Part shown: positions 1 to 11,519 of the stretch, piece after piece
Numbering within the stretch: position 1 is the stretch's first letter
How the letters are laid out: the number at the start of each line of letters is the position of its first letter
Source: Candidatus Sumerlaeota bacterium
GTDB taxonomy: Bacteria > UBP6 > UBA1177
Length of the DNA: 43,511 nucleotides
Assembly: GCA_007132725.1 (NCBI GenBank)
Contig: SLOD01000111.1
Span: 1 to 43,511, forward strand
Reading direction: 5' to 3'
The notes under the pieces: model-generated
What the model was told of the DNA's origin: nothing
What the model saw: the letters and a program-made list of their open reading frames with translations, nothing else
Databases searched by the model: none
Made by a program: the position numbers and the translations under genes

Positions 1-63
1 CCTGAGGGTAAGTCGAGAAAGCAAAAGCCATCAGCAGACAAATCAGGGGACGCGAAACAATGA
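1..63 (+). CDS. hsdM: C-terminal tail of a type I restriction-modification DNA methyltransferase subunit (HsdM), partial at window edge
   Basis: Frame 1 reads PEGKSRKQKPSADKSGDAKQ-stop (TGA 61-63) and overlaps a following HsdS-like start by ATGA, the usual hsdM/hsdS junction. Identity is inferred mainly from context. Confidence 0.5.
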   Translation, partial: PEGKSRKQKPSADKSGDAKQ

Positions 64-221
64 AAATAAAACTCTCGGAAAAACAGATAAAAGATGGGTG
101 GAAGATTGTGAAGTTCGGGGAGATTGCCAGAGAGGTGAAATCCACCACGAATAATCCTGTTGGAGATGGATTGGAGTATTATATCGGTCTTGATGGCAAG
201 AAGGTGTTTTATAAACTTTAA
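60..221 (+). pseudogene. hsdS: Truncated 5' fragment of hsdS (type I R-M specificity subunit)
   Basis: ATG at 60 reads MKIKLSEKQIKDGWKIVKFGEIAREVKSTTNNPVGDGLEYYIGLDGKKVFYKL-stop. The WKxVKFGEIA...GLEYYIGL pattern is typical of an HsdS N-terminus; similarity stops after about YIGL and the frame ends at 53 codons. Confidence 0.7.
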
Positions 222-246
222 GAAGAAGGGAGTATTAAGCGGAAAC

Positions 247-1179
247 ATGTACAGCAAAAAGATTCCATCTCCTTATTTTATAACTCTTACAAAAGATGCT
301 TGTTTGAAGGCATTTTGGAGAAAAAGTACACTGAGAACTTTCTTGCTTCAGCAAAAGGTTTCTCAAAATTATCTAAATTCATGGTCCGATGATGAATCTA
401 AAAGAATGTATATAGACCGTCTTTTTGAAGCATTGATAAAGACTCCCGCCGGAAGAGGATATAAGGTAATTTTTAATATTGCAGAGTCTATAGCTGAAAT
501 GAAATCTTTTCCTGATCTGGAGAATTGGGAAGATTCAGCAGATAAGAAATCAAAAGCACATGAAGCTGTCTCACGATTAAGAATGGAAGTGAACAAACTC
601 AAAAAATCAGAAAAAGATGAAAAAGAAGTAGAAGAAAAGAGAAAGAAGTACCATGAAGAACAGCAACAAAAAATTGCCACAGCATCTTCGATAGAAAAAC
701 TTCAGCAATCACTCACCGATCTTGTTTCTAAGCAGGGAACACAAGAAGGTGGGCATGCTTTTGAGAAATGGTTTTATGATTTGGTTGACTTTTTTGAGCT
801 GCATTATAAAAAATCATACAAAGATAGAAATGATCGGCAGATTGATGGCTCAATAACTTTGGACGGAACAACATTTCTCGTTGAAACCAAATTTACAAAA
901 GATCCAACAGGTTCGCAAGACATTGATATTTTCTTCAGCAAAATTCAAAGAAAAGCAGACAACACAATGGGAATAATGCTTTCTATGGCTGGGTTTAATG
1001 ACAATGCAATTGAGAATGCATGCAGAGACAGAACCACGCTTCTTTTGATGGACTATACTCATCTCTATAATCTGATCTTTCCACAGTTGATGACATTACA
1101 AGAAGTTATTCAAAGAATATGGAGACATGCCTCTCAAACTGGAGAATCGTATCTCGCAGTTAAGGATTTTTCGAGGTGA
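247..1179 (+). CDS. PD-(D/E)XK (restriction-endonuclease-like) domain protein with alpha-helical/coiled-coil N-terminus
   Basis: ORF track 160..1179; the ATG at 247 (MYSKKIPSPYFITLTKDACLKAFWRK...) is preferred because 160-221 overlaps the hsdS fragment. C-terminal GHAFEKWFYDLVDFF...RQIDGSITLDGTTFLVETKF fits a D-x(n)-ExK nuclease core. Confidence 0.7.
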   Translation: MYSKKIPSPYFITLTKDACLKAFWRKSTLRTFLLQQKVSQNYLNSWSDDESKRMYIDRLFEALIKTPAGRGYKVIFNIAESIAEMKSFPDLENWEDSADKKSKAHEAVSRLRMEVNKLKKSEKDEKEVEEKRKKYHEEQQQKIATASSIEKLQQSLTDLVSKQGTQEGGHAFEKWFYDLVDFFELHYKKSYKDRNDRQIDGSITLDGTTFLVETKFTKDPTGSQDIDIFFSKIQRKADNTMGIMLSMAGFNDNAIENACRDRTTLLLMDYTHLYNLIFPQLMTLQEVIQRIWRHASQTGESYLAVKDFSR

Positions 1180-1189
1180 GTAACATACA

Positions 1190-2389
1190 GTGATTAACTT
1201 TAAAACCCTTGACATAAACATGATTAATTCAAGTCCAGAGATTAGAACATGGTTGCAACAGTTTGGGACTCATGATGTTGAAACAGCTAAATCTTTGCTT
1301 GCAAATTTGAAGTTTGTATCAAGAGATGATTATGCGGAGTGGGTTGTCAATAAATTGGAATGTTTTCAAGCTGGAACAGACAGTTCTGCTATTTATACCG
1401 TCAGGAAGTTTCGTACAGGAGCACAAAATTTCTGGAGAAATGATGGTTCAGTTCAACCCAGACCTGCAACAACACAAGGAAGTGAAGATTTGGCTGCATC
1501 AATCATTTCCAATGCAAATAGAAGATATGGTGATTTTTTTAAAGATCACCCTTCTTTGCAAGTTTTAAAGAATAATCGAATAAAAAGCATAATTTTAATT
1601 GACGATTCGATTGGTAGTGGACATCGGGTTTCAGAGTTTCTTAAGTTAATGACAAACCATCCTACTTTCTTGAGTTGGTGGAATTATGGAAGAATACATA
1701 TCCATATTATTGCACTAGCAAGAACAAGAGAATCAGAAAAATTTATCTTGGAAAACATGGTTGGTTCAGATCATGGAAAAAGAGTTTATAGAAAGTCTTC
1801 TAAATTGTTTTTTCATAGCGATATTGTCTATAATTCTTTTTATTTAAATTCCCGGTGGGGCAAAAAAAGTAATGAAATATTAAATCTGTGTGGTAGAACT
1901 AAAAAGATTCCTAAAGATCGCAGAAGAGGATATGGTGATGTGATGGGAAATATTGTTTTTTACCACAGTGTACCAAATAATATTCCGGGAATGCTGTTTA
2001 GACGAGATAATGGCTGGCAACCTTTGTTTCCAGATAGAAGTTTTCCCGACTGGCTGGCAAATCTTCTTGAAAACGGTAGTAGGATAAATACTGTTGATGA
2101 CTCAGGACAACTTCAAATTAGGAAAGAAGTTCTTCAAATATTAGGAATGGTTAAAAGTGGTCTTCGTACAAAAACAAGTTTGTCAAAAAGACTTGGTTAT
2201 GATGTTAAAATTGTTGATCAAATCATGTCTTTTTGTTTGCGAATGAATTTGTTGTTCAAAGATGAGAATAATGTCTTACGGATTGGAGAAGCAGGATATG
2301 CTTATCTGAAAAGAAACATACAAAGTATTGAGAGAAAGAGAGAGTACGATTATGGACTATATGTTCCATCAACTTGGAGTGTCGACTAG
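1190..2389 (+). CDS. PRTase-CE-like (phosphoribosyltransferase-fold) protein with C-terminal winged-helix-like region
   Basis: GTG start with SD-like GAGGTGAG at 1173-1180. PRPP-loop-like IKSIILIDDSIGSGHR; VMGNIVFYHSVPNNIPGMLFRRDNGWQPLFPDR resembles conflict-associated PRTase-like proteins. C-terminal RKEVLQILGMVKSGLRTKTSLSKRLGYDVKIVDQIMSFCLRMNLL looks winged-helix. Confidence 0.7.
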   Translation: MINFKTLDINMINSSPEIRTWLQQFGTHDVETAKSLLANLKFVSRDDYAEWVVNKLECFQAGTDSSAIYTVRKFRTGAQNFWRNDGSVQPRPATTQGSEDLAASIISNANRRYGDFFKDHPSLQVLKNNRIKSIILIDDSIGSGHRVSEFLKLMTNHPTFLSWWNYGRIHIHIIALARTRESEKFILENMVGSDHGKRVYRKSSKLFFHSDIVYNSFYLNSRWGKKSNEILNLCGRTKKIPKDRRRGYGDVMGNIVFYHSVPNNIPGMLFRRDNGWQPLFPDRSFPDWLANLLENGSRINTVDDSGQLQIRKEVLQILGMVKSGLRTKTSLSKRLGYDVKIVDQIMSFCLRMNLLFKDENNVLRIGEAGYAYLKRNIQSIERKREYDYGLYVPSTWSVD

Positions 2390-2626
2390 GCGACTATTTA
2401 GCCGTCTGGTTTTTTTGATAATATATCGGGGAATCAGGCAGATTCCACACATTAATTTGTGTAGGATGGAGATAGCGGATAGTTATCTCTGGAAAGAACT
2501 GACGATATGGCGACTTCGTCGCCCATGGATGTCCTCCTCCATTATCCATCGAGGTCTCGGGAAGACGAGGACATTCACGGCCCCAATAGGGTTAAAGGAG
2601 TAAGTAAATGGAAGCCTGGTCGACAC
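2379..2626 (+). ncRNA. Candidate retron msr-msd RNA
   Basis: 13-bp outer helix GTGTCGACTAGGC (2379-2391) with GCCTGGTCGACAC (2614-2626), one G-U. Inner helices CTATT/AATAG (2394-2398/2585-2589) and GCCGT/ACGGC (2401-2405/2577-2581). TTTAGC at 2397-2402 as branching-G candidate. Hairpins at 2430-2446 (GGAATC/GATTCC), 2447-2462 (ACACA/TGTGT), 2468-2490 (GGAGATA/TATCTCT), 2507-2526 and 2527-2576. Lies directly upstream of a retron-type RT. Confidence 0.7.
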
Positions 2627-3768
2627 ATCATCTTTTTAAAAAGGCTTTAGATGAAAATCTACAAGAATCATCTGCTGATAATGCCCAAAAATATGCTGCA
2701 AAATTAAGGTCTAAGAATTTACCTGTTATATTTTCACTTAGACATCTAAGCAAAATAACTGGAACAGAATACTTGTCATTACACAGCACTGTTAACAGAA
2801 AAAAGGATTCCTGTAATTACTCAATTTTTTCAATTAAAAAACGATCTGGAGGCCGCAGATTTATTCACGCCGTGAATCACCCTCTTTTTTCTGTTCAGAA
2901 ATTCATTAACTGTGAAATTCTCCAAAATGTAAAACCGCATCACTCTTCCTTTGCATTTCATCGATCTGGTGGAATAAAAAAATGCGCAGATATGCATTGT
3001 GGGGCAAAATGGATATTGTCTTTTGATCTCAAAGACTTTTTTTATTCCATTAAAGAATCTTCTGTCTATGAGGTATTTGCTGAATTAGGATATAAAAGCC
3101 TACTTGCTTTTGAAATGGCTAGGTTGTGTACTACAAGACGCCTTCCTCAAAAGGCTGACAAATATTTGAATTATCAGGATATACCAATTTTGAGAAATTA
3201 TGAACAGTCAAAGAGCTATCCATATGAATTCAATCATTTTCAAGGGGTTCTTCCCCAAGGTGCGCCAAGCAGTCCAATGTTAAGTAATTTAGTGGCAAGA
3301 ACACTTGATGAAGCATTGTATTCATTTTCGCAAGAAAACAGTTTTATATATACTAGATATGCTGATGATCTTACTTTTTCTGCAACTAGACTTCCTGAAG
3401 GAAAATCAATAGGCAGATTGAAAATGGATATAATATCAATTATCAGGAGACATGGATTTATAGAAAATCCTAAAAAAATAAGGATTGCAGGTTCCGGATC
3501 AAAAAAGGTTGTCTTAGGATTATTGGTGGATGGTGATCGATCGAGAATATCCAAAGAAATGTATAAACGAATAGATAGACTATTGCACGCAGCAACAAAA
3601 TATGGAATAGAAGATACAGCATCTCATGAAGGATTTAAGTCAGCATATGGTTTATTTAATCATTTGAAAGGCTTGCTGCTTTTTGTTAAAGATGTTGATT
3701 TTAAAAGATGGGAATTTTTTCAGGAGAAGTTTCAAGAAATAAGTGGCCCATGGGAGAATTTAATATGA
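2608..3768 (+). CDS. Retron-type reverse transcriptase
   Basis: SD AAAGGAG (2594-2600) before the ATG. RT motifs: SGGRRFI, ILSFDLKDFFYSI, GVLPQGAPSSPMLSNL, FIYTRYADDLTFSA, NPKKIRI, VLGLLVDGDRSRIS. CADMH just before RT3 resembles retron region X (NAxxH), and VLG resembles region Y (VTG). Confidence 0.9.
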   Translation: MEAWSTHHLFKKALDENLQESSADNAQKYAAKLRSKNLPVIFSLRHLSKITGTEYLSLHSTVNRKKDSCNYSIFSIKKRSGGRRFIHAVNHPLFSVQKFINCEILQNVKPHHSSFAFHRSGGIKKCADMHCGAKWILSFDLKDFFYSIKESSVYEVFAELGYKSLLAFEMARLCTTRRLPQKADKYLNYQDIPILRNYEQSKSYPYEFNHFQGVLPQGAPSSPMLSNLVARTLDEALYSFSQENSFIYTRYADDLTFSATRLPEGKSIGRLKMDIISIIRRHGFIENPKKIRIAGSGSKKVVLGLLVDGDRSRISKEMYKRIDRLLHAATKYGIEDTASHEGFKSAYGLFNHLKGLLLFVKDVDFKRWEFFQEKFQEISGPWENLI

Positions 3769-3894
3769 CCATCAACGAACAAAATACCATCAGTGACTAA
3801 CCTAATTGGCAAAAAATTTTCCATTCAAGCAGGAACTAATAAAATTTTTATGGAAGTAAAAAGCGACACTACTCCACATCCCTTCTCAATTTTA

Positions 3895-3922
3895 TTGACA
3901 AAACCTTGTTTCTAAATAAAAA
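3895..3922 (+). promoter_or_regulatory. Putative sigma70-like promoter for the ACP gene
   Basis: TTGACA (3895-3900), 16-nt spacer, TAAAAA (3917-3922), upstream of the ACP start at 3980. The -10 is weak. Confidence 0.35.
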
Positions 3923-3979
3923 TCAAACTCAATTGTTCAGTTTTTGTGCTGAAACAGTAATTTTTGCCGGAGGCATATC

Positions 3980-4222
3980 ATGGAAAAAAAAGATATTCTT
4001 GAAAAAGTATTAACTTTAGCTTCAGAAAAACTGTCTGCAAAAAGAGAAACAATTTCGGAAAAAACAAAGTTTGATGAAGACTTGAGTGCTGACTCAATAG
4101 ATGTTACCGATTTTATCATGGAACTGGAAAGTGAGTTCGATATAGTGGTAGATGATGACGATATAATCGGGATCAGAACTATCGGCGATGCTGCTGATTA
4201 TATCCACGAAAGACTTACATAA
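3980..4222 (+). CDS. acpP: Acyl carrier protein
   Basis: 80 aa with phosphopantetheine-site motif LSADSIDVTDFIMELESEFDI; SD GGAGG upstream (tgccggaggcatatcATG). Confidence 0.85.
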   Translation: MEKKDILEKVLTLASEKLSAKRETISEKTKFDEDLSADSIDVTDFIMELESEFDIVVDDDDIIGIRTIGDAADYIHERLT

Positions 4223-4244
4223 AAAAACTAAGAGTTTTCAAAAC

Positions 4245-4264
4245 TGAAATAACCGTCTATTTCA
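4245..4264 (+). terminator. Weak hairpin downstream of the ACP gene
   Basis: TGAAATA-accgtc-TATTTCA, 7-bp stem; T-rich stretch begins several nt later. Confidence 0.25.
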
Positions 4265-4356
4265 AAAACTTTACTTTTTATTTCCGAAATGTAGATATAT
4301 TTGTGCTCTTAGACTATTATGGGCTTTGCTTGATTTTGTGACAGGAGATTTTTGGA

Positions 4357-7023
4357 ATGGAAATTGGTAAAAAGTATCAACATGAAGGAATTGAAAAAAA
4401 ATGGTATTCTTTCTGGGAGGAAAAGGGTTTTTTTAAGGCTGATCCTTCTTTAGACAAACCTCCGTTTTCAATAGTTCTTCCTCCTCCCAATGTTACCGGA
4501 GTGCTTCATATGGGGCATACGGTAATGGCTGTTATACAGGACATAATGAGCAGATATAAAAGAATGTCCGGTTTTGATGTTTTATGGCTCCCGGGTACAG
4601 ATCATGCGGGTATTGCAACTCAAATGGTGGTTGAAAGAGATTTGCAGAAACAGGGAATTTCCCGTCATGACCTTGGACGTGAGAAATTTCTTGAAAAAGT
4701 GTGGGAGTGGAAAAACACAAATGGCGGAACAATAACGAAACAACTCAGAAGTCTCGGTTCATCTCTTGACTGGTCAAGGGAGCGGTTCACGATGGATGAG
4801 ATGTTGTCGAAAGCTGTTGTTGAGGTGTTTGTTTCTCTCTATGACGAAGGGTTGATATACAGGGACAACTATATCATCAACTGGTGTCCAAGTTGCAGAA
4901 CTGCTTTAAGCGACCTTGAAGTTGATTATCAGGAAAATGAAGGAAACCTATGGCGCATTAAATATCCTGTAAAAGGTGAAAAAGGGAGATTCCTGACAGT
5001 TGCAACCACCCGTCCGGAAACAATGCTTGGAGATACTGGTGTAGCCGTTCATCCGGAAGATCCAAGATATGAAGACCTTATAGGTAAAGCTGTAACTCTT
5101 CCATTAATGAACAGGGAAATTCCGATAGTTGCAGATGAGGTGCTTGTTGATATGGAATTTGGAACAGGTGCTGTAAAGGTTACCCCTGCTCATGATTTTA
5201 ATGACTTTGATACCGGCAAAAGACACAATCTTGAAGAGATAAATGTGGTTGATGAATCTGGAAAAATTAACAGACAGGGTGGAAAATTCAATGGGATGGA
5301 TGTTCTTGATGCCAGGAAAGCTATAGTAAAAGAACTTGATTCCCTCGGCCTTCTTGAAAGCGTTGAAAAACATTCCCATTCTATTGGGAATTGTGGCAGA
5401 TGCCGCACAGTTGTCCAGCCGATACTTTCAAAACAGTGGTTTGTAAAAATAGAGTCTCTTGCAAAACCGGCTATTGAAGCTGTTAAAACGGGAAAGATAG
5501 TTTTTCAGCCTGATCATTGGAAAAAAACATACTTTGAGTGGATGTACAACATAAAAGACTGGTGTATAAGCCGTCAGCTCTGGTGGGGACACCGTATTCC
5601 TGCATGGTATTGCGGTGATTGCGGTGGAACTGTTGTTGCAAGGGAGGAGCCTGAACAATGTTGTGGATGTTCCTCAAAAAATCTTGAAAGAGATCCTGAT
5701 GTCCTTGATACATGGTTCAGCTCGGCACTTTGGCCATTTTCTACTCTAGGATGGCCTGAAAAAACAGACGATCTCAAAAAATATTATCCTACAACCCTTA
5801 TGGAAACAGGTTTTGACATCATCTTTTTCTGGGTAGCCAGAATGATAATGGCAGGGTTGAAATTTGTCGGTGACATTCCTTTTGAAAAAGTGTACTTTCA
5901 TGGAATGGTAAGAGATGAGAAAGGGCAGAAAATGTCCAAGACCAAAGGGAATGTGATAGATCCCCTTGATATAACAGAAAAGTACGGTGCAGATGCTTTA
6001 AGATTCACCTTTGCAATGATGCCTCTTTCAGCTACGGATCTTAAACTTTCAAAAGATGCGATAGAAGGATACTGGAATTTTATCAATAAAATATATAATG
6101 CTGTCAGATTTTCTCTTATGCAGTTTGATGAAGGCGAAATACTTGAGTTTGTTCCGTCAGAGTACAAAGATGACAACTTTTCTTTTGCGGATAGGTGGAT
6201 ACTTTACAGACTTGACTCAGCAACAGAACAAGTTGAAGCATCTCTTGAAGAAATGAGATTCAGTGATGCTGCAGGCACTCTTTATCACTTTTTCTGGCAT
6301 GAATTCTGTGATTGGTATATAGAGCTCGTTAAGCCCACTTTTTTCGGAGAAGATGAACAGGGAAAAACAGTTTCAAAAAAAGTGCTTGTGAAAGTTCTCG
6401 ATGCAAGTTTAAAGCTTCTCCATCCATTCATGCCCCATGTAACTGAAGAACTTTGGCAGGCACTGCCTGTAAAATATTCTTCAAAAAAAGAATCAATAAT
6501 GGTAAGCTGTTTCCCCGGGCATGGTGATTTTTGTAAATTCAGGTCGGATGCTGAAACAATGGATCAGGTACTTGAAATAATAACCTGTATCAGGACAATA
6601 AGGTCAGAGAACAACATAAAGCCTTCCTGTGAAACTGATGTGATACTCTCTTTGAAAGATGATGTCAAAAATGTTCTCAGCGGAGGGGAAGACTATCTTA
6701 AAAGACTGGCAAGGATAAAAAACATAACCTATGCAGACAAGGTTGATGAAGTTGATAGAGAAACGGCGTCCGCTGTTGTAAAAGGAGGGAAGCTCTTTGT
6801 TCCTTTAGCTGGACTTGTTGATTTTTCTGAAGAGATAAAAAGGATAAAAAAAGAGATAGGAAAGTTGCAGAAAGACTATGACCAAAGTGAAAAGAAGCTT
6901 TCAAACGAGAACTTTCTCCAAAAAGCTGATCCTGAAGCTGTGGAAAAGGAAAAGGTCAAACATTTCCGTATCAGTGAAAAATTGGATCACCTTAAAGAGA
7001 GGCTTAGGGAAATATCAAAATGA
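4357..7023 (+). CDS. valS: Valine--tRNA ligase
   Basis: 888 aa; PPPNVTGVLHMGHT (HIGH-type), LPGTDHAGIATQ, GQKMSKTKGNVIDP (KMSKS), C-terminal coiled coil. Confidence 0.97.
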   Translation: MEIGKKYQHEGIEKKWYSFWEEKGFFKADPSLDKPPFSIVLPPPNVTGVLHMGHTVMAVIQDIMSRYKRMSGFDVLWLPGTDHAGIATQMVVERDLQKQGISRHDLGREKFLEKVWEWKNTNGGTITKQLRSLGSSLDWSRERFTMDEMLSKAVVEVFVSLYDEGLIYRDNYIINWCPSCRTALSDLEVDYQENEGNLWRIKYPVKGEKGRFLTVATTRPETMLGDTGVAVHPEDPRYEDLIGKAVTLPLMNREIPIVADEVLVDMEFGTGAVKVTPAHDFNDFDTGKRHNLEEINVVDESGKINRQGGKFNGMDVLDARKAIVKELDSLGLLESVEKHSHSIGNCGRCRTVVQPILSKQWFVKIESLAKPAIEAVKTGKIVFQPDHWKKTYFEWMYNIKDWCISRQLWWGHRIPAWYCGDCGGTVVAREEPEQCCGCSSKNLERDPDVLDTWFSSALWPFSTLGWPEKTDDLKKYYPTTLMETGFDIIFFWVARMIMAGLKFVGDIPFEKVYFHGMVRDEKGQKMSKTKGNVIDPLDITEKYGADALRFTFAMMPLSATDLKLSKDAIEGYWNFINKIYNAVRFSLMQFDEGEILEFVPSEYKDDNFSFADRWILYRLDSATEQVEASLEEMRFSDAAGTLYHFFWHEFCDWYIELVKPTFFGEDEQGKTVSKKVLVKVLDASLKLLHPFMPHVTEELWQALPVKYSSKKESIMVSCFPGHGDFCKFRSDAETMDQVLEIITCIRTIRSENNIKPSCETDVILSLKDDVKNVLSGGEDYLKRLARIKNITYADKVDEVDRETASAVVKGGKLFVPLAGLVDFSEEIKRIKKEIGKLQKDYDQSEKKLSNENFLQKADPEAVEKEKVKHFRISEKLDHLKERLREISK

Positions 7024-7865
7024 AGATGCCTGAATATGTTACAAAAGAATTTTTAAAATACTGTATCAAAGAGGATATAGGGAAAGGAGATATAACAACA
7101 AAACTGATCTATGATAAAAAAAATATTCAAACAGGTATAATAACAGCAAAAGAGCCTATGGTCGTTTGCGGAACAGATCTTGTCCCTGCAGTTTACAGCT
7201 TGATAGATGAAACCCTTGAGTTTGAAATAATGGTTGCGGATGGGAAATCGGTCAAAAAAGGGGATGTTATTGTAATGATAACCGGCAACTCTGCATCCAT
7301 TCTTGCCGGAGAACGAACTGTGCTTAATTTCATTCAGAGGTTAAGTGGAATAGCATCGCTTACGGCACAGTTTGTGAATGCTCTTGCAAAAGGAAGCGGA
7401 ACAAAAGTAACAGATACCAGAAAAACTACTCCCGGTTGGAGAACTCTTGAAAAATATGCTGTCAGAACAGGCGGGGGCACAAACCATCGTTTTGGCCTTG
7501 ACGATGGTATTATGATAAAAGACAACCATATTGAAACTGCCGGATCTATATCAAAAGCGGTTGAAAGAGTGCGTCAAGGTACGCATCATCTGCTTAAAGT
7601 GGAAGTGGAGGTGACAAATATTGAGCAAGTGAAAGAAGCTCTTGACTGTAAAGCTGATGTTATAATGCTTGATAATATGTCAAAAGAAAAAATGATTGAA
7701 GCCATCAGGTTGATAAATGGGAAGGCGATCGTTGAAATATCGGGCGGAGTTACAATTGAAAAAATTGCAGAACTTTCAAAACTGGGAGCCGATTTCATAT
7801 CAGTAGGAGCACTCACACACTCTGCCGTAGCCAAAGATATTAACTTGACAATAAAAAAGAAATGA
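7020..7865 (+). CDS. nadC: Nicotinate-nucleotide pyrophosphorylase (carboxylating)
   Basis: TDTRKTTPGWRTLEKYAVRTGGGTNHRFGLDDGIMIKDNH; VEVEVTNIEQVKEAL; IEISGGVTIEKIAEL-type region. Overlaps valS by 4 bp. Confidence 0.96.
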   Translation: MKMPEYVTKEFLKYCIKEDIGKGDITTKLIYDKKNIQTGIITAKEPMVVCGTDLVPAVYSLIDETLEFEIMVADGKSVKKGDVIVMITGNSASILAGERTVLNFIQRLSGIASLTAQFVNALAKGSGTKVTDTRKTTPGWRTLEKYAVRTGGGTNHRFGLDDGIMIKDNHIETAGSISKAVERVRQGTHHLLKVEVEVTNIEQVKEALDCKADVIMLDNMSKEKMIEAIRLINGKAIVEISGGVTIEKIAELSKLGADFISVGALTHSAVAKDINLTIKKK

Positions 7866-8761
7866 AAAAAGAACTTATCGAAAGAACATTTGCCTGGATA
7901 TTTATTGTTTCAATACCCGTAACAGCGGTTTTCTGGCTTTTTCTAAGTGACACAAGAGGTGTTGATGAGGACACTGAACGGAGCTTCGCCGAAATAGTCA
8001 ACAGATACCACAATGAAGGGGATGTGGTTTTTCCTGAAGTTGACTGGGATCTCGGCTTTTTGAAACATCTTGACCACGGCATAACGAATGTTCTTTTAAC
8101 ATTAAAAGAAAGTGGTCCGGACGACATCAGGCTTTTCAGAGACGATGGTGCAAAAATATTTTTTCTGCTTAAAAATAGAAAAAGCTGGGGAAAGCTGAAG
8201 GAAAGGTTGTCAATAGATGAGTATGAAAAGCGGGAAGCAGGAAAAGGAGTGGTTGTTATAGTTCCGCCTAAAGAAGATTCGCTACACAAAAAACTGATCT
8301 TTTCAAGAGATGTTCATAAAGCTTCCGAAGTTTTTTTCAGTAAAGGAGAAGATAAAAAACCATGCAGTTTGGTCAGCAGAAGATGGAGATGCAGCAAGCA
8401 CAGGTGGAACCATGTAGGATATACAAGAGCTGTCGTAAACAAAAGACCTCAGCAGGTTGTGTGGGCACATCCAAGAACGGGGGAGAATCTCCACATTATT
8501 TTTGATATTCCGGAAAATTCTTCCACAATTAACCTTAATACAGCGATGCTGGAAAGAGCTGTCAGATCAAGAAACAGATCTCCTGTTAAAGTTACAGTGA
8601 TAATTGACGAAAACAAAGTGCTTGAATATACTAACAGAAGCGTGAGGGATGTCTATCAAAATAAAATAGATGTTCCTGAAGGGGCGGAAAGATTGGAGCT
8701 TAGGTTTAAAACAAGAGATGACGGACAGCGTCACTTTATTTTTAACGGGTACATAGAATAA
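7862..8761 (+). CDS. Conserved hypothetical protein with N-terminal TM segment
   Basis: 299 aa ORF overlapping nadC by ATGA; N-terminal hydrophobic segment TFAWIFIVSIPVTAVFWLFL. Confidence 0.75.
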   Translation: MKKELIERTFAWIFIVSIPVTAVFWLFLSDTRGVDEDTERSFAEIVNRYHNEGDVVFPEVDWDLGFLKHLDHGITNVLLTLKESGPDDIRLFRDDGAKIFFLLKNRKSWGKLKERLSIDEYEKREAGKGVVVIVPPKEDSLHKKLIFSRDVHKASEVFFSKGEDKKPCSLVSRRWRCSKHRWNHVGYTRAVVNKRPQQVVWAHPRTGENLHIIFDIPENSSTINLNTAMLERAVRSRNRSPVKVTVIIDENKVLEYTNRSVRDVYQNKIDVPEGAERLELRFKTRDDGQRHFIFNGYIE

Positions 8762-10425
8762 TGCTGAAACTTAATAAGTTTGAAAAACTGGATTTTATTT
8801 TAGCCGGGTTGATCGGGCTTGTCATTTTGCTTTTCATATTTAATACCTCCCATCTGATCGGATTTGTTAGAGATGAAGGTTTTTATATGAGAGCCGCCTC
8901 GTTGAAAGCTGACTGGTTTGAATCAATAGAAGAGAGTTTTCTTAAAGGAAACTTTATAGAACCTTTCAGAAAAGAAAACATTGATAAATATTTCAGGTAC
9001 AACAGAGAACATCCTACTTTGATGAAAAATCTTTTCGGATTTTCTCAATATCTTTTGTATCGTAAGCTTGGATGGCTTTCTTTTGCAGGCTCCGCCAGAT
9101 TTGTTGCAGCTCTTTTTGCCATGCTCACAGCTATGATGATCTATCTGTTTGGATTAATGTTTTTTAATAGATTTACTGCGGTTACATCATCGCTGATGTT
9201 TTTTATGATGCCTCACATATTTTTTCATTCTCATCTGGTTTGTTTTGATGTTCCGATACTGTTTTTCTGGACAGGAACTTTTGTGCTTTATGCTCTTTAT
9301 CTGAACAACAGGAGTTTGAAACTGGCTGTTGCCACAGCAGTTTTTTTCGGGCTAGGAATGGCTGTAAAGCATAATGTTTTTTTTATACCGGTCACTATCG
9401 CTCCGCTCTGGTTTGTCATGCACATCATTAAATATAGAAAAGATCCTGAATCTGCAGGGATAAAGGGTTTTTTTAAGTCAATTCCGATCGTATTCTGGCT
9501 CTTTATCTTTGTTTCAATTCCGGTCTATTTTTTACAGTGGCCATGGATATGGTATGATACTGTTGACCGGTTTATGTGGTATTTTAACTTTCATGCAAGA
9601 CATGTGAACTATACAAATTACTATTTTGGGCAGGAATTGGCAACAGCTCCTTTTCCTATATCTTTCCCCTGGGGAATGACACTTTTCACTACGCCGGTCA
9701 TTCACTTGATATTTTTCATTGCGGGAATTTACTTTTTTGTGGAAAGAACAGTAAAAGAAAAAAACTGGCACTCAAAAGAAATCTACATCTCTCTGATTAT
9801 CGGATCTCTGTTCCCCATAGCTTTGATTTCTCATCCATCTGTTGTTATCTTCGGAGGAATAAAACACTGGTTTACAGGATATCCTCTGATGATGACCGCT
9901 GGGGTGTTTGTCGTCTACAGAGGGCTGTCCATACTGTTTGACAGGTTCGGCAGAAAAAAAGTTTTGATAATAAATTCAGCTTTTTTTATTGTTGCGGCAA
10001 TGGCACTTGTTCCCCTTAATGTTAAGTTTTCAATGCGGGGAGCGGCTTTCTTTAACAAGCTCATAGGAGGAGCACAAGGGGCCGCTGAACTGAGAATGCA
10101 AAGAAACTTCTGGGGCTATGATATTCTTGACCTTGTGCCCGAGTTGAACCGTGTCGCTCCGAGAGGTTCTGTTGTATATGTCATGGGAGGATATGAAGGT
10201 TTAAACTGGAATTCCTTTCAATATTTAAAAAGAGAAGGTATAATACGCGAAGACATAAGAGGGACAAACAGCTTGGAGAACGCTGATTTTGCTTTTTTCT
10301 TTTATGAAAAACAGAATGAACACATATTAAATGAGATAGGGATGGAATTTAAAACCCTCAGACCGCTTGCTGTTACAGAGACAGACTCAGTTTTTTATTC
10401 AGCACTTTTCAGGAGGGAGAAATGA
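8761..10425 (+). CDS. Multi-pass membrane glycosyltransferase, GT39/PMT (ArnT)-like
   Basis: 554 aa, many TM segments; DEGFYMRAA near the N-terminus and a REHPTLMKNLFG segment fit the GT-C/PMT architecture. Confidence 0.7.
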   Translation: MLKLNKFEKLDFILAGLIGLVILLFIFNTSHLIGFVRDEGFYMRAASLKADWFESIEESFLKGNFIEPFRKENIDKYFRYNREHPTLMKNLFGFSQYLLYRKLGWLSFAGSARFVAALFAMLTAMMIYLFGLMFFNRFTAVTSSLMFFMMPHIFFHSHLVCFDVPILFFWTGTFVLYALYLNNRSLKLAVATAVFFGLGMAVKHNVFFIPVTIAPLWFVMHIIKYRKDPESAGIKGFFKSIPIVFWLFIFVSIPVYFLQWPWIWYDTVDRFMWYFNFHARHVNYTNYYFGQELATAPFPISFPWGMTLFTTPVIHLIFFIAGIYFFVERTVKEKNWHSKEIYISLIIGSLFPIALISHPSVVIFGGIKHWFTGYPLMMTAGVFVVYRGLSILFDRFGRKKVLIINSAFFIVAAMALVPLNVKFSMRGAAFFNKLIGGAQGAAELRMQRNFWGYDILDLVPELNRVAPRGSVVYVMGGYEGLNWNSFQYLKREGIIREDIRGTNSLENADFAFFFYEKQNEHILNEIGMEFKTLRPLAVTETDSVFYSALFRREK

Positions 10426-11519
10426 CATATCTTTTTTCCAACCCTCAAATTAAAAAATGGAAAACCATGTTTTTTCTTTCTTTCCTTTTCAACATCATTC
10501 TCATAACAACGTTTGTGTTAAGGGAGTGTGAAGTTGAAAGAGAGCAGAAGTATGTTGAGGGGGTTGAGAATGGGGCTGATATTGCAGGAGAAAAAAAGAG
10601 CGGTGATGAAAAACCCCTCTCTGTGGTACATATGGACGATGTTTCAGGCGAAAGAGCTTTAAAAGTTGGAGATATAATAGTTCAGTCCATAACAGTTGTA
10701 GATAATTTTTACAGTGCTTTTAATCGAAGTGAAGATGTTGAAAAAGTTGCTGAAAAACTTGAAATACCATCTCTGGCCGATCTGTTGGGGGCACATTTGG
10801 CACGACTTCTTGTGTGGGATTTAAAACTAAGGAACGATGTTAGAAAAGGAGACACATGTGTCTATGCTTTCAGAGTTATCCCTGAAGATGAAAGAAGGGA
10901 AAGAGATGACCTGCCCGATCTTATAGAGATCGTAGCTTTGAACTACCATTCTAAAAAGCTCGGAAAAGACATAAAAATATTCAACTTTACCCCAAATTCA
11001 TCCCGTTTTTCAGCATTTTACTATGAAACAGGTGTGATGGTGGAAAAAAAGATCTATCCTATAGCTCCCATAAAAGGATATATACAGGTTACAAGTAAGA
11101 TAGCAGATAGAGCCCCGCGTCATGATGGCATTGACTTTAAGGCACCTGTTGGCACACCGGTTTTTTCAACTGTTGACGGAACCGTTTCCAGAACGAACTG
11201 GATGACCCGTTACAACGGCTACTGTATAGAGATAAAAGAGAAAGACAAACCGTTTACTTACAAGTATCTTCACCTGAGCGATGTTCTGGTAAAGCCAGGT
11301 CAAAAAGTGAGAGCCGGAGATCACATTGCCAACTCAGGGAACACCGGCAAAACTACAGCTCCTCACCTCCACTATCAAATAAACATAGGGCAAAGAGGCG
11401 ATGTAATAAACCCTTTTGAGCATCATCAGGTGAAAAGTGTAAAGCTTGAAGGGGAAGATATGGGTAGTTTCAGAGAGAAAATTGCTGAAATTGAATCAAT
11501 GATTGCGTCTAAAAGATGA
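10422..11519 (+). CDS. M23-family peptidoglycan endopeptidase
   Basis: APRHDGIDFKAPVGTPVFSTVDGTVSR...GYCIEIK...YLHLSD...ANSGNTGKTTAPHLHYQI (HxxxD and HxH motifs); N-terminal TM anchor. Confidence 0.92.
   Translation: MTYLFSNPQIKKWKTMFFLSFLFNIILITTFVLRECEVEREQKYVEGVENGADIAGEKKSGDEKPLSVVHMDDVSGERALKVGDIIVQSITVVDNFYSAFNRSEDVEKVAEKLEIPSLADLLGAHLARLLVWDLKLRNDVRKGDTCVYAFRVIPEDERRERDDLPDLIEIVALNYHSKKLGKDIKIFNFTPNSSRFSAFYYETGVMVEKKIYPIAPIKGYIQVTSKIADRAPRHDGIDFKAPVGTPVFSTVDGTVSRTNWMTRYNGYCIEIKEKDKPFTYKYLHLSDVLVKPGQKVRAGDHIANSGNTGKTTAPHLHYQINIGQRGDVINPFEHHQVKSVKLEGEDMGSFREKIAEIESMIASKR

Follow-up and report, generated by a model that had tools for sequence, protein, structure and literature searches.

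A predicted type III-A retron with a probably separate Mrr-like nuclease gene stacked in front of it in a Candidatus Sumerlaeota genome

In retrons, the complex of a reverse transcriptase (RT) and its msDNA restrains an effector, which is released on a phage trigger. The closest described relatives of the locus analyzed here belong to type III-A, a class for which defence in general is not well demonstrated. Retron-Bpu1, a member of this type, makes RT-DNA and gave no defence against the phages tried, while Retron-Ppe1 could not be introduced into E. coli (PMC12548924). Next to the III-A-like RT of Retron-Sda1 lies a HipA/DUF3037 system that defends without this RT and its RT-DNA (PMC12548924). 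Type III-A is already named, and the present locus adds one case in which the retron is preceded by a nuclease gene.

The window, i.e., the whole stretch of DNA under analysis, comprises 43,511 nucleotides at the beginning of a contig (SLOD01000111.1) of a metagenome-assembled genome (MAG) of a Candidatus Sumerlaeota bacterium. Three intact, co-directional open reading frames (ORFs) are located near its start, with a structured RNA between the last two and a gene fragment upstream:

61–222, plus strand: apparent truncated type I restriction-modification (R-M) specificity gene (putative hsdS stub, 53 codons), read by eye
247–1179, plus strand: Mrr-like PD-(D/E)XK nuclease, 310 aa (Mrr_cat match, catalytic residues, AlphaFold model)
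1190–2389, plus strand: PRTase-CE and winged-helix protein, presumed type III-A effector (PADLOC, Pfam, alignment)
approximately 2390–2607, plus strand: retron ncRNA, msr-msd candidate (folding z-score, III-A architecture, compensatory changes)
2608–3768, plus strand: retron RT, type III-A, YADD intact (PADLOC, alignment, PDB relatives)

The nuclease frame extends from ATG 247 to TGA 1179, and that of the PRTase/winged-helix (wHTH) protein from GTG 1190 to 2389, with an alternative in-frame start at ATG 1223. The tight spacing of the three ORFs given in the preliminary description was confirmed, with a gap of 10 nt between the first two; the SD-like sequence AGGTGAG overlaps the stop codon of the nuclease gene, so that co-translation of nuclease and PRTase in the window genome appears plausible. 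Promoter and terminator scans gave scores no better than those of shuffled sequences. No clear insertion footprint was detected, the repeats around the cassette being short and imperfect, and the base composition is similar, with no sign of a separate recent arrival.

Positions 1–121 of the window are identical to positions 3308–3428, the end, of another contig of the same genome (C51), the final gene of which encodes a RhuM protein. An exact 121-nt overlap between the ends of two contigs is the pattern expected of an assembly-graph junction, and beyond it the sequence may differ in other strains of the sample. The 53-aa hsdS-like fragment had no match in a Pfam search, and no Methylase_S domain was found elsewhere in the searched contigs of the window’s genome. 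The RhuM gene and the hsdS stub upstream of the nuclease resemble a type I R-M/RhuM locus in decay.

The PRTase protein matches the PADLOC profile PRTase_III-A (E=5.7e-86) and, above the Pfam cut-offs, the PRTase-CE (PF24390, E=2e-24) and wHTH-PRTase_assc (PF24409, E=1e-6) families. In an alignment of 19 sequences it contains the PRPP-loop-like motif DDSIGSG and is diverged, with only 20–27% identity to most relatives. Its structural model (pLDDT 76) weakly resembles DtxR/MarR-type winged helices and, more weakly still, OPRT/HPRT, and a PDB sequence search yielded no convincing PRTase relative. The RT scored 517 bits (E=1.8e-155) against PADLOC RT_III-A and 234 bits against the best non-III-A model, the clade assignment being made by profile score. 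It also matches RVT_1 (PF00078, E=5.5e-18) in Pfam, retains the YADD motif and the conserved blocks in the alignment, and has retron RTs, e.g., Ec86, as its PDB relatives. Neither the RT nor the nuclease was found outside the window’s genome in a search of 28 genomes of its phylum, and scanning viral contigs with only the RT as query gave no match. Considering the profile matches of RT and PRTase and the RNA shared with III-A loci, positions 1190–3768 were assigned, at the level of sequence, as a complete type III-A retron. The earlier suggestion that PRTase/winged-helix proteins are tied to one retron type is thereby made specific, as PADLOC identifies this type as III-A.

The region between the PRTase gene and the RT folds at -76.9 kcal/mol (z=-3.07), a value reached by one of 200 dinucleotide shuffles; the 5′ end of the RNA may lie inside the PRTase gene. 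Within a series of hairpins, an msd-like stem at approximately 2525–2578 comprises 13 pairs and a loop containing GAGGTCTCGG (best-stem score matched by 2 of 200 shuffles), and is followed by a short 3′ hairpin and an AAAG tail that runs up to the RT start. The regions upstream of III-A RTs have short sequence blocks in common, together with the AAAG tail immediately upstream of the RT start codon. Most of the 21 other III-A regions carry a long, sequence-divergent stem, which usually encloses a GTCTYG-like loop motif and often precedes a short hairpin; the long stem was not recovered by a simple stem search in three loci (L006, L011, and L012). A family-wide MAFFT alignment of the RNAs misaligned the msd stems, and the stems were therefore compared individually. 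The RNA of the closest complete relative, L133, forms the same hairpin series (z=-3.72), and a simple alignment of the two folds gives 16 common column pairs, four of them changed on both sides, three on one side, and nine unchanged. The architecture common to III-A loci and the compensatory changes support the gap RNA as a real msr-msd candidate. An Rfam search returned tRNAs only. The preliminary description had read this gap as a strongly structured RNA and the locus as a retron, and both proposals are borne out by the fold, the msr-msd-like RNA, and the placement of the RT in a retron clade.

The upstream nuclease matches Mrr_cat (PF04471, E=3.4e-7, 30.8 bits against a cut-off of 21) in Pfam, so that Pfam matches uphold all three domain calls made earlier (nuclease, PRTase-CE/wHTH, and RT). 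Its catalytic residues are D200, E213, and K215 (D/ExK); D200 and E213 are invariant in nine nuclease relatives, and K215 is present in most. The AlphaFold model (pLDDT 87) displays an N-terminal helical part, a long coiled-coil helix at residues 97–145, and a restriction-endonuclease fold, the structural matches of which are weak (one at E<0.001) and consistent: Cdn1/Can2, AF1548, MspJI, and AspBHI. For the N-terminal helical domain and the coiled coil, no match to a named family exceeded the cut-off, and a PDB sequence search found no convincing relative of the nuclease. Its C-terminal half matches PADLOC PDC-S02 at E=1.9e-4 (18.8 bits), too weak a match to assign it to that family. In PADLOC, the retron part of the operon proposed earlier was thus recovered as RT and PRTase of type III-A, and the nuclease drew nothing beyond this weak match. 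Relatives of the nuclease with 42–45% full-length identity come from both viral contigs and genomes. Judging from fold and family, the most probable activity of the nuclease is autonomous cleavage of foreign or modified DNA. We infer that it is an independent, self-sufficient restriction-type defence gene, separate from the retron; its independence is supported by the precedent of Retron-Sda1, the neighbour of which defends without the RT.

That the nuclease serves the retron as an additional or alternative effector, as the preliminary description had proposed, is not borne out by the linkage in other loci. PRTase and RT are linked in 44 other loci (42 distinct loci and two more), and the nuclease family is present in none of them, within flanks of typically 2–6 kb, some contigs ending sooner. 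Likewise, no PRTase or RT was found in the flanks of about ten nuclease relatives; one of these adjoins an integrase-like gene (L093), one lies 14 nt behind the candidate-defence helicase PDC-S28 (L095), and two are surrounded by unrelated genes (L101 and L103). In one sample of 399 genomes, the nuclease was present in 4 and PRTase_III-A in 12, with no genome containing both. The nuclease was also considered as a member of a conserved operon and rejected, with no second case found, and its adjacency to a III-A retron is unique to the window genome among the sequences searched. Of the gene linkage expected earlier, that of the PRTase to the RT therefore held, and that of the nuclease did not.

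The two loci with the nearest RTs, L133 and L011, are the most informative. In L133 (IMG/VR contig, 2462–9357), whose RT and PRTase are 56% and 43% identical to those of the window, a terminase-like and a portal-like gene flank the III-A retron within a phage contig, and approximately 480 nt with no nuclease separate the terminase-like gene from the PRTase. The PRTase reading frame of L133 stays open across the RNA region as far as the RT start. L011 (Proteobacteria MAG, 5700–7134; RT 54% identical) consists of RNA and RT without PRTase or nuclease, and no other recognizable effector was found beside its RT. The absence of the nuclease from both loci indicates that the PRTase–RNA–RT unit travels without it. 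The window locus is probably composed of two stacked defence systems, not a new four-part machine.

Elsewhere, III-A cassettes are packed against other defence genes. They lie 2 nt behind PD-Lambda-2_C (L007), 16 nt behind HsdS (L015), and, as measured, 18 nt behind GajB (L004, in which the PRTase frame is broken into two pieces), with spacings to PRTase resting on estimated start codons. One strand of L015 (Verrucomicrobiales MAG, 3–10718) has the order hsdR–hsdS–III-A retron–DUF5131–another gene–hsdM. L041 (Bacteroidales MAG, 1–8659) contains hsdR, two small genes (one PIN-like), hsdS, PRTase, RT, and hsdM, with 11-nt overlaps at both the hsdS/PRTase and the RT/hsdM junctions; by its gene order, this cassette reads as enclosed in a type I R-M operon. 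In L037 (Brumimicrobium, 3–8341), hsdR–hsdM–hsdS precede the III-A retron, and a PDDEXK_4 nuclease follows it. The latter belongs to a family other than that of the window’s nuclease. In L027 (Prevotella MAG, 1295–10664), an OLD-type ATPase and a UvrD-type helicase, which are Gabija-like, begin 12 nt after the RT. An AAA-ATPase/unknown gene pair flanks this III-A-like retron on the other side, and the gene ends either overlap or are separated by 12 nt. The window conforms to this arrangement, with its III-A cassette behind another defence gene. No description of such cassettes inside other defence operons was found in the literature searched, the main classification lying outside that search. 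As other III-A cassettes lie equally close (overlap to 18 nt) behind unrelated partners, tight spacing is no proof of coupling.

We hold with good confidence that the locus is a III-A retron at 1190–3768 with a separate nuclease stacked in front of it. The position of the nuclease on the same strand, 10 nt away and with an SD-like site over its stop, would also suit a four-component retron, in which an RT–msDNA–PRTase complex would hold the nuclease, as an added or alternative effector, until infection releases it. Unrelated defence systems are known to gain nucleases, e.g., in nuclease–protease pairs (PMC12799240), and Retron-Eco8 has a DNA-cutting effector (PMC12887533). The divergence of the wHTH-PRTase may reflect a specific adaptation to the nuclease, the similar base composition gives no sign that the nuclease arrived separately, and some comparison loci have short flanks. 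However, with the nuclease missing from all 44 other PRTase+RT loci, including the closest complete relative, with its relatives living without a retron, and with equally close spacing seen for unrelated partners, we regard a four-component retron as improbable, and functional coupling of the nuclease to the retron as possible but unlikely.

PrrC guards a type I R-M enzyme and fires when a phage disables this enzyme. III-A retrons within other defence operons might similarly fire when a phage disables the system around them; in the window, the system backed up by the retron would have been the R-M locus or the nuclease. The cassettes lying between hsdS and hsdM, in L041 with gene ends that overlap and in L015 with two more genes, would fit such a role, as would those beside R-M genes in L037, L014, and L049 and beside Gabija-like genes in L027 and L004. 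HsdM-like genes occur near 5 of the 23 III-A loci and near 3 of the 56 loci with other RTs (p=0.04), but this count is post hoc, with seed proteins drawn from the III-A loci themselves, and the excess is only a lead. The partners differ, defence islands cluster anyway, and L133 and many other III-A loci stand alone, which makes a guarding role very improbable. That the retron is a non-functional remnant of an eroding defence island might be suggested by the apparently truncated hsdS-like gene and by L011, an RT relative without PRTase; three full-length ORFs, intact catalytic motifs, and a preserved RNA structure leave this reading barely credible. Overall, it seems unlikely either that the nuclease was recruited as a second msDNA-gated III-A effector or that other defence operons (type I R-M, Gabija, solo nucleases) have repeatedly taken up III-A retrons as back-ups triggered when the host system is disabled.

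For the preferred reading of a III-A retron with a separate nuclease, we hypothesize that the RT makes msDNA from the RNA at approximately 2390–2607, as in other retrons. The RT–msDNA particle would bind the PRTase-wHTH protein and keep it inactive, a restraint for which type III retron biology provides the basis (PMC12548924). If a phage function then altered the msDNA or the complex, the PRTase-CE protein would be released, poisoning the cell and aborting the infection; the likeliest guess for the target of this protein is nucleotide or PRPP metabolism. The nuclease and the retron perhaps share one transcript and would act independently.

The locus contributes a complete III-A retron, as predicted, together with an RNA model, and illustrates how sequence-based inference of defence systems goes astray if it relies on close gene spacing alone. 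A more interesting lead than the adjacency in the window is that III-A cassettes sit inside other defence operons; their repeated occurrence inside or behind such operons, e.g., in L041, raises the idea that these retrons may act as guards of other defences or be no more than passengers beside them. Compared with known systems, the window shares with type III-A (PADLOC RT_III-A/PRTase_III-A; Retron-Bpu1 and Retron-Ppe1, PMC12548924) the gene order PRTase-CE with winged helix, ncRNA, and RT, as well as an msd-like stem with the common loop motif and the AAAG tail; its RT and PRTase both score well above PADLOC models for other types. Its sequence falls, together with L133 and L011, in a diverged sub-branch, and the nuclease gene that precedes it was not seen with other III-A retrons. 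This nuclease has the C-terminal PD-(D/E)XK fold and residues of Mrr-type restriction endonucleases (PF04471), whereas its N-terminal helical domain and coiled coil set it apart. As in Retron-Sda1 (PMC12548924), a III-A-like RT stands beside a defence system different from its usual effector; in Retron-Sda1, however, the PRTase is missing and replaced, whereas in the window the PRTase is present and the nuclease is an addition.
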